Position numbers and translations under genes: made by a program
DNA from: Lentisphaerota bacterium
Lineage (GTDB): Bacteria > Verrucomicrobiota > Lentisphaeria > Victivallales > UBA1829
DNA: 64,000 bases
Reading direction: 5' to 3'
Assembly: GCA_015061915.1 (NCBI GenBank)
Contig: SUVR01000007.1
Location: 62,001-126,000 of the forward strand
Notes under the pieces: model-generated
Told to the model about the DNA's origin: nothing
Databases searched by the model: none
What the model saw: only the letters and a program-made list of their open reading frames with translations
Shown here: piece after piece, positions 5,432-23,254 of the stretch
Numbering within the stretch: the stretch's first letter is position 1
Layout: the number at the start of each line of letters is the position of its first letter

Positions 5432-5593
5432 ATGGACAAGTACGAATGCACAGCCTGCGGTTACATCTATGACCCCGAAGTCGGCGATCCGGATAGCGGT
5501 ATCGCTCCCGGCACCGCCTGGGAAGACGTCCCGGCAGATTGGACATGCCCCACCTGCGGCGTCGGTAAAGACGATTTCGTCAAGGTTGGCTGA
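5432..5593 (+). CDS. rub: Rubredoxin
   Basis: A 53-residue electron carrier with one Fe(Cys)4 centre: C6-x2-C9 ([12 protein letters not shown]) and C39-x2-C42 ([13 protein letters not shown]). The full classic rubredoxin pattern is present, including [16 protein letters not shown]. It starts 30 bp after the flavodiiron gene behind an AAGAAGGAG site and is the last gene of the oxygen-defence unit. It probably feeds electrons to both the superoxide reductase and the flavodiiron protein. Confidence 0.97.
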
Positions 5594-5620: not shown

Positions 5621-5776
5621 GCCGGGCGGGCGCACCCCTGCGCGTCGGCAGCAGAAGCTGCCGGCGCGCATTCTTTTTTTTCCGGCGGGCGCTTCCGCCG
5701 CCGGAAAAAAAAGAACAGTCCGGAGGCTCAGGCGGACCTTCGGTCCGCGCCTCCGGACGGGGTGCGCCCCCCCGGC
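5621..5776. repeat. Closed four-way-junction inverted repeat, copy A
   Basis: The 156 bp nest completely. The closing stem is GCCGGGCGGGCGCACCCC (5621-5638) with 5759-5776 (17 of 18 pairs). Inside it are hairpin 1 (5639-5652 with 5657-5670, 14 bp including one G-T pair), hairpin 2 (TTCTTTTTTTTCCGGCG, 5671-5687, with 5699-5715, 17 bp perfect) and hairpin 3 (5718-5727 with 5749-5758, plus inner 5732-5738 with 5742-5748). Only two bases at the junction are unpaired. No coding potential is evident. Copy B at 22445-22621 has the same plan and the same T-run/CCGGCG middle hairpin. The function is unknown; a transcription terminator, a structured RNA or a MITE-like element are all possible. Confidence 0.85.
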
Positions 5777-21545: not shown

Positions 21546-22421
21546 ATGGGCAATAAACTCATGCTCGGTATTCCGAAAGGAAGCCTCGAAACATCTACGA
21601 CCGCTATGTTTGCAAAAGCGGGCTACAAGATCGAGATCAGCTCCCGGTCCTACTATCCCACGATCGACGATCCGGAAATCGAATGTATGCTCATCCGCGC
21701 TCAGGAAATGTCCAAATATATCGAAGAAGGCATCCTGGATTGCGGTCTTACCGGCTTTGACTGGATTCAGGAAAATGGATCCGATGTGGTGGAAGCCGCC
21801 GAACTGGTTTACGGGAAAGTCGGCAGAAACCCGCTCCGCTGGGTCCTCGCTGTGCCGGAAGATTCCGACATCAAGTGCGCCGCCGATCTGGAAGGAAAAC
21901 GTATCGCTACGGAAGCTGTCGGTATGACGAAGCGCTATCTGGAAAAGCACGGCGTCAATGCCAAGGTGGAATTCTCCTGGGGCGCAACAGAAGTCAAACC
22001 GCCCCGCTTCGCCGATGCCATCGTTGAAATCACCGAAACCGGTTCCAGCCTGCGTGCAAACCGCCTGAAAATCATTGATACCCTCTGCATCAGCACCACC
22101 CGCTTCATCGCAAACAAGGAAGCGATGCAGGATCCGTTCAAGAAGCAGAAGATCGAAAAACTTTCCATGATGCTCAAGGCGGTTCTCGCAGCCGAAGGCA
22201 AAGTCGGTCTGAAACTGAACGTCCACAAAGATGATCTGGAACAGGTTATCGCAAAACTGCCCAGTCTGGAACATCCGACAGTCTCCCAGCTCGCCGATCC
22301 TGCCTGGTTCGCACTGGAAACCATCGTGGACGAACACGTGCTGCGTGATCTGATCCCCGAACTCAAGGCGCTCAACGCCAAAGGTATCGTGGAATATCCG
22401 CTCAATAAGATCGTGGACTGA
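21546..22421 (+). CDS. hisG: ATP phosphoribosyltransferase, long form
   Basis: It catalyses the first step of histidine synthesis, joining ATP and PRPP. The 291 residues indicate the long HisG_L form: catalytic domains with [19 protein letters not shown] and the PRPP-binding [17 protein letters not shown], then a C-terminal regulatory domain of about 75 residues ([15 protein letters not shown]..., [26 protein letters not shown]) that usually binds histidine. A strong AAGGAG site precedes the start. No other his gene is nearby, so the pathway genes are scattered. Confidence 0.96.
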
Positions 22422-22444
22422 TCTGATCCACGGATAAGGCAATC

Positions 22445-22621
22445 GTACGCCCGGAAAGGGCGGCGGTCACGGCTCCGCAGAGCATCGCTCTGTGGAGCCT
22501 GCTTTTTTACCGGCGTGAGGACAGCACATCAAATGCGCCCGCCCGCCGGTAAAAAAGCGAAAAGCCGAAGCGCCATTCCGCGCTCCGGCTTTTTTGTGAC
22601 CGCCGCCCTTTCCGGGCGTAC
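22445..22621. repeat. Closed four-way-junction inverted repeat, copy B
   Basis: This 177-bp element fills the gap between the convergent hisG and GDSL genes. The closing stem is a perfect 26-bp inverted repeat (22445-22470 with 22596-22621), extended by GATCCAC/GTGGATC (22425-22431 and 22624-22630). Inside are hairpin 1 (22471-22483 with 22487-22499, 13 bp with one G-T), hairpin 2 (GCTTTTTTACCGGCG, 22501-22515, with 22544-22558, 15 bp perfect, 28-nt loop) and hairpin 3 (22560-22573 with 22580-22593, one mismatch). Almost nothing is unpaired at the junction. The T-run/CCGGCG middle hairpin links it to copy A at 5621-5776. The role is unknown. Confidence 0.87.
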
Positions 22622-22630
22622 TTGTGGATC

Positions 22631-23254
22631 TTACAATCCCATCGCTTTTTCCCAGGCGTTGGCGAGGATGCGATGTCCTGCCGGGGTGGGATGGACGCCA
22701 TCGCCGAGCCAGTAAGTGGAGGGAGCCAGTTTTGCGGTTTCGTCGAAGAGGCTCTGCGCGGGGATGAAGATGGCATTGAATTCTTCTGCCAGTTTTTTCA
22801 CGACGGCAGCGCGTTCGCGGACTTCATCCATCATCACGTAGTTCGGTTCGTATGTACCGAGGAAGGGTTCGATCAGGATCAACTGGACGCCGGGGAGGGT
22901 ATCCACGGTCCACTGGAGCAGTTCACGGAAGATCCGTTCATAGCGCGGCACTTCCACGCCGTTTTTGTTACCGAATTCGTGCCAGGTGTCATTGACGCCG
23001 ATGAGGATGCTGAGAATATCCGGCTTCAGGTTCAGGCAATCCGCTTTCCAGCGGGCGTAGAGGTCCACGATACGGTTGCCGCTGATGCCGCGGTTGACCA
23101 CTTCATATTCCTGCGGGTATTTGCTCCACAAATCGGCTGCCACCATACCGGGATAACCGGGGCTGACGCCGAAGCTGTTGAATCCGGCGACATCTTCTCT
23201 GCTGCGGCCGCAATCCGTGATGGAATCGCCCTGAAAGAGGATCTTTTTTGTCAT
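22631..23254 (-). CDS. SGNH/GDSL-family hydrolase
   Basis: The 207 residues show all four SGNH blocks: GDSITD with S11 (block I), GISGNR (block II), GVNDTW (block III) and DGVHPTPAGH with the catalytic Asp and His (block V). Members hydrolyse esters of carbohydrates, lipids or peptidoglycan. There is no signal peptide, so an intracellular deacetylase or esterase acting on sugars is a reasonable guess. It is transcribed away from xseB and converges on hisG across repeat copy B. Confidence 0.92.
   Translation of the reverse strand: MTKKILFQGDSITDCGRSREDVAGFNSFGVSPGYPGMVAADLWSKYPQEYEVVNRGISGNRIVDLYARWKADCLNLKPDILSILIGVNDTWHEFGNKNGVEVPRYERIFRELLQWTVDTLPGVQLILIEPFLGTYEPNYVMMDEVRERAAVVKKLAEEFNAIFIPAQSLFDETAKLAPSTYWLGDGVHPTPAGHRILANAWEKAMGL

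Follow-up and report, generated by a model that had tools for sequence, protein, structure and literature searches.

The gap between the convergent hisG and GDSL-type lipase/acylhydrolase genes contains element B, a closing stem around three hairpins, and a structure-only scan covering 864 kb of its genome (G000) revealed 30 elements of this kind. Sequence varies from copy to copy, whereas the fold, a closing stem with exactly three hairpins, is constant, and the elements lie at gene ends, where many carry a terminator signature on both strands. With moderate confidence, we read them as a lineage-specific, fold-defined family of bidirectional terminators, with arms that would be kept up at the DNA level and copies that would disperse as whole units.

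Architecture, abundance and distribution of the elements

The window, the whole stretch of 64,000 nucleotides analyzed here, includes B and a related element, A (Table 1). The initial annotation described B as a nested inverted repeat that fills the hisG/GDSL gap, and this anatomy held: B takes up the entire gap (hisG stop ending at 22421, GDSL gene stop at 22631), its three hairpins sit inside a perfect closing stem of 26 bp, to which an outer extension adds 7 bp, and only two bases at the junction are unpaired. Folded as single-stranded DNA, B reaches −96.6 kcal/mol, compared with a shuffle mean of −44.4 (z −14.2), and this energy was equalled in 0 of 200 shuffles. The feet of H2, a T-run on the 5′ side and an A-run on the 3′ side, form a U-tract in both directions. 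Element A follows the same plan as B (fold z −11.4); comparison of the two sequences bore out the claim that their middle hairpins match (TTTTTTTTCCGGCGG in A, TTTTTTACCGGCG in B) while their closing stems differ.

Table 1 Coordinates of elements A and B and of their neighboring genes in the window
Feature	Position	Strand	Remarks
Element B, whole	22425..22630	.	Closing stem P1 and three hairpins between two convergent stop codons
Outer extension of closing stem, 5′ side	22425..22431	+	7 bp (GATCCAC)
Outer extension of closing stem, 3′ side	22624..22630	+	GTGGATC
P1 5′ arm, 26 nt	22445..22470	+	100% complementary to 22596-22621
P1 3′ arm, 26 nt	22596..22621	+	Pairs with 22445-22470
B hairpin H1	22471..22499	+	H1 then T-run: intrinsic-terminator signature for hisG
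B hairpin H2	22501..22558	.	T-run 22503-22508 at 5′ foot, A-run 22551-22556 at 3′ foot
B hairpin H3	22559..22594	-	Minus strand: H3 then H2 T-run, terminator signature for GDSL gene
hisG (ATP phosphoribosyltransferase), upstream neighbor of B	21546..22421	+	PF01634 (HisG) 2.9e-43; stop 22419-22421
GDSL-type lipase/acylhydrolase gene, convergent neighbor of B	22631..23254	-	PF13472 (Lipase_GDSL_2) 3.5e-26
Element A	5621..5776	.	P1 5621-5638 / 5759-5776, one C.C mismatch
Element A hairpins	H1 5639-5670, H2 5671-5715, H3 5718-5758
Rubredoxin gene	5432..5593	+	Stop codon 27 nt before element A

G000 comprises 2.49 Mb in 31 contigs; the sample, about 35% of it, combined the window with 40 stretches of 20 kb each. 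The scanner relied on structure only, with GC-rich arms 70–260 nt apart, an RNA fold with a closing helix of at least 8 bp, three branches and less than −0.6 kcal/mol per nt; it uses RNA energy parameters, although the structure may be DNA. The density of one element per 28.8 kb extrapolates to about 86 copies in the whole genome. Dinucleotide-shuffled versions of the same stretches contained 0 elements, the best reaching −0.434 kcal/mol per nt, whereas every real copy was at −0.66 kcal/mol per nt or lower, which excludes chance. A wider scan that allowed two, four or more branches returned three-hairpin elements only; its single “2”-branch call was also a copy with three hairpins, around which an additional outer helix had been read. 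Copies measured 125–214 nt (typically ~150 bp), with closing stems of 8–39 bp and 0–10 unpaired junction bases. B is therefore not unique, and the conserved shape with divergent sequence that had been noticed in A and B extends to all 30 copies.

Closing stems vary across copies, with a loose likeness near the junction only (for example, 21 nt common to B and C). Queried with B, a DNA search of G000 yielded the element itself and short fragments, including the closing stem of one other copy, and DNA searches of this genome pointed to more copies, on contigs C11, C19, C4 and C28. A covariance model derived from a single copy together with its orthologue, with a low effective sequence number, recovered most other copies, many of them on both strands. 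Whole-genome DNA and covariance-model searches begin from sequence and find few copies, and their negatives weigh little. Searched against Rfam 15, the window had no match at gathering level, the best score for B being 20.5 bits where 40 are required, and B had no match in phage and plasmid collections.

The closing stems of copies X1, S5, X2, S12, S6 and C contain a one- or two-base bulge ~10–17 bp from the junction, beyond which pairing picks up again; this may be a recognition or processing mark. In another gap of G000, at L126:4400-5000 (G000:C9:164400-165000), short palindromes of a different set recur, both GCACGCTGAAGGCGTGC and CCTATGGGCAAGCCCATAGG being present more than once. L118:8060-8935 (G000:C25:148060-148935) is self-similar, with many offset matches of ~40–60 nt to its counterpart in G001, a congener, which suggests that a gene contains, or lies close to, an internal repeat array.

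Judged by its HisG relatives, the closest of which include gut and rumen assemblies, the genome belongs to Lentisphaeria/Victivallales. G001, the one sampled congener, is fragmented and 72% complete; it has copies, several of them at the same gene junctions as in G000. No copy was found in a 733-kb sample of genomes from the same family and order or in 840 kb of hisG-flanking loci of Lentisphaeria, Planctomycetes and others, where about 50 copies would be expected at the density of G000. Weak matches in the relatives (−0.57 to −0.50) were rejected, those inspected being coding sequence with poor helices. Within these sampling limits, the family looks restricted to one Lentisphaeria genus. G001 contigs do not span the positions corresponding to A and B or to the copies in L204 and L208. 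Contigs C104 and C326 of G001 (L235, L244), compared with L217:6833 and L204:9156, end a few hundred bases from the places of G000 elements; these ends look as if hairpins break short-read assembly, and copy numbers may be underestimated.

Gene-end placement and the terminator signature

Analysis of the surrounding genes, called with an in-house hexamer-based gene finder, showed that the elements adjoin stop codons, usually at a distance of at most 30 nt; the initial annotation had overlooked both this placement and the resemblance to two-way terminators. Among gaps of at least 100 nt, an element was present in 13/37 (35%) of those between convergent genes, 13/113 of the codirectional gaps and only 2/72 (3%) of the divergent ones (convergent vs divergent, p = 9e-6). 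Within codirectional gaps, the element lies mostly beside the stop of the upstream gene, not the next start. The only two copies between apparently divergent genes are L125:7772-7926 and L204:7136-7260, for which a missed small gene and another role are both possible.

In A, in B and in roughly half of 24 inspected copies from G000, plus-strand H1 and minus-strand H3 are each followed by at least six T in eight bases, and this signature appears on both strands because H2 opens with a T-run and closes with an A-run. Where a gene end had an element, a hairpin with a T-tract was found in 31/39 cases, compared with 78/262 where it had none (p = 4e-9); convergent gene ends considered alone gave 24/26 vs 33/80. 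The remaining half or so of the copies have weaker or no T-runs after H1 and H3; the canonical signature is thus not universal, and termination is not the whole story. In L201:12710, L205:13192, L132:3687 and L152:1495, the closing stem has an A-run on the 5′ arm and a T-run on the 3′ arm, and the entire element could serve as one long terminator hairpin.

In the reading that we favor, a polymerase coming from the left gene would make H1 and halt after reading the T-run with which H2 opens, and one coming from the right gene would make H3 and halt after reading the opposite side of H2. H2, as a U-tract both ways, would make the element a compact bidirectional terminator. Against this reading, a plain two-way terminator needs neither a long closing stem nor exactly three hairpins, and whatever part the closing stem may play, it would never form in RNA if the polymerase halted at the T-run.

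Arm upkeep, dispersal and competing explanations

Internal helix positions of the 30 copies contained 8 G.T and 9 A.C, compared with 17 G.T and 6 A.C in ordinary terminator stems of the same genome under a comparable counting rule. Whereas this contrast in ratio was not significant alone (p = 0.11), internal non-Watson-Crick positions were significantly rarer in the elements (1.4%) than in the ordinary terminator stems (4.4%; p = 1.3e-4). RNA-level selection would prefer G.U over A.C; since there is no such excess, the pairing points to DNA, not RNA.

Five elements were compared with their G001 orthologues at the same gene junction. Of 232 helix-aligned pairs, a count that admits only positions paired in both species, 207 were unchanged, 21 differed in both bases and 4 in a single base, and one element whose outer stem has indels supplied 16 of the 21 double changes, which inflates doubles; the informative part of this comparison is the scarcity of one-sided states. 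Differences between arms do not break pairing, as the orthologues stay paired through paired changes. In one orthologous pair (G000:C10:42642 vs G001:C178:9744), H1 and H2 have inverted tips, with A7 vs T7 in H1, and the flanking genes are collinear. Template switching between inverted repeats is reported to homogenize their arms and to invert the spacer (PMC8604942).

The initial annotation had attributed the common shape to selection for structure. Paired changes do keep the fold, but such selection would be only part of the explanation, because G.T/A.C symmetry and the inverted hairpins suggest additional copying of arm onto arm at the DNA level. The arms are plausibly maintained at the DNA level, by template switching plus selection: template switching in folded single-stranded DNA would copy one arm onto the other, sometimes inverting hairpin tips, and selection for termination would act alongside it, with new copies arising as whole units. 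A possible but distinctly less probable reading is a shape-heritable DNA repeat family, in which a replication or recombination activity specific for structure would recognize a nearly perfect four-way junction of exactly three hairpins and re-perfect it as DNA, through arm copying and hairpin inversion, and the junction would disperse to gene ends and serve there as a two-way terminator.

Copies L208:13427-13612 and L208:16917-17057 lie 3.5 kb from each other and show 87% identity, confined to the part between GGCGGCGGTCC and GGACCGCC; with unrelated flanks, the element is all that they have in common. This one clear pair suggests dispersal as whole units; other copies share hairpins patchwise, in either orientation. 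Such a unit-only duplication and such patches, as well as a strict three-hairpin plan with nearly free sequence and the copies that have no T-runs, would also fit a non-autonomous mobile element known by its shape, namely a folded single-stranded four-way junction cut and joined by a structure-specific enzyme, with gene-end placement reflecting target choice or tolerance and terminator function as a by-product. We regard this explanation as doubtful. Target-site duplications and a transposase acting on such ends had both been proposed as things to look for, and neither search was productive: the end repeats were no longer than at random places, leaving no target-site duplication above chance, and the only Y1 transposase (PF01797) match in G000 was a fragment, an open frame of 94 aa that aligns to positions 2-60 of 121, with none in G001 (72% complete), so that Y1 transposase as the driver is not supported. 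Moreover, no clean empty site was seen, all five comparable sites being filled in both species. A candidate empty site for the G001 copy g1 carries no weight, the locus having been rearranged.

An RNA element, either a structured 3′ UTR protecting mRNA or a regulatory RNA, made by transcripts that read through the whole element, is improbable. Placement just past stop codons, a very stable predicted fold and compensatory pair changes would all be in keeping with it, but G.U is not in excess over A.C, both strands are equally good, T-runs after H1 would end the transcript before completion, and Rfam has no match. We give very little credence to a DNA cruciform site, in which an extruded four-way structure would absorb supercoiling or bind a nucleoid or junction protein between converging units, since the DNA-type perfection of the arms, the few unpaired junction bases and the enrichment between convergent genes, where positive supercoils meet, are offset by equally many copies between codirectional genes near one stop codon, by the lack of a known protein partner and by T-runs that such a site does not predict.

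Comparison with known systems

Bidirectional intrinsic terminators between convergent genes resemble the elements in having a hairpin and a T-tract on both strands and in their placement at gene ends. Ordinary ones, however, consist of one hairpin with A-run/T-run flanks, whereas the elements nest three near-perfect hairpins in a closing stem and show less mismatch than ordinary terminator stems. Integron attC sites are recognized by fold, with little sequence conservation, and are found at gene 3′ ends; an attC is a single imperfect hairpin with R/L boxes. A simple pattern test found the attC R′/R″ core box pair in 0/30 copies, and there was no cassette array.

REP/BIME sequences with TnpA_REP are alike in being high-copy extragenic mosaic palindromes, often at gene 3′ ends, and roles in termination and mRNA stability have been proposed for them (PMC8266576, PMC2817692). 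REPs are 20–40 bp long with a GTAG/CGTC-type tag and shared sequence, whereas the elements are ~150 bp and keep the fold instead; a tag of this type was close to an end in only 4/30 copies, and no intact TnpA_REP-type gene was found in G000 or G001. The MITE-like families NEMIS/Correia, RUP, ERIC and RPE (reviewed in PMC2229807) are similar in their length of ~100–150 bp, dispersed occurrence, terminal inverted arms and foldable transcripts. Unlike the elements, which have no common terminal sequence, these families have shared sequence, transposase-linked terminal repeats and target duplication. Mitochondrial double-hairpin and repetitive hairpin elements (PMC2800124, PMC4478555) are also dispersed intergenic palindromes that spread without an identified enzyme. 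These organellar units are two or simple hairpins, and they are not known to have a closing stem around three hairpins or the two-way terminator pattern.

No description of such elements was found in the literature searched, the coverage of which was partial. REP/BIME, MITE-like repeats and attC each differ from the elements in at least one tested defining feature. Bacterial repeat families are usually found by sequence, whereas this family is nearly invisible to sequence search and very strong by fold. If confirmed, it would represent a shape-defined repeat family and a naturally compact two-way terminator, and would allow direct tests of whether bacterial palindromes with a function are kept perfect by template switching and of what demands exactly a four-way junction.
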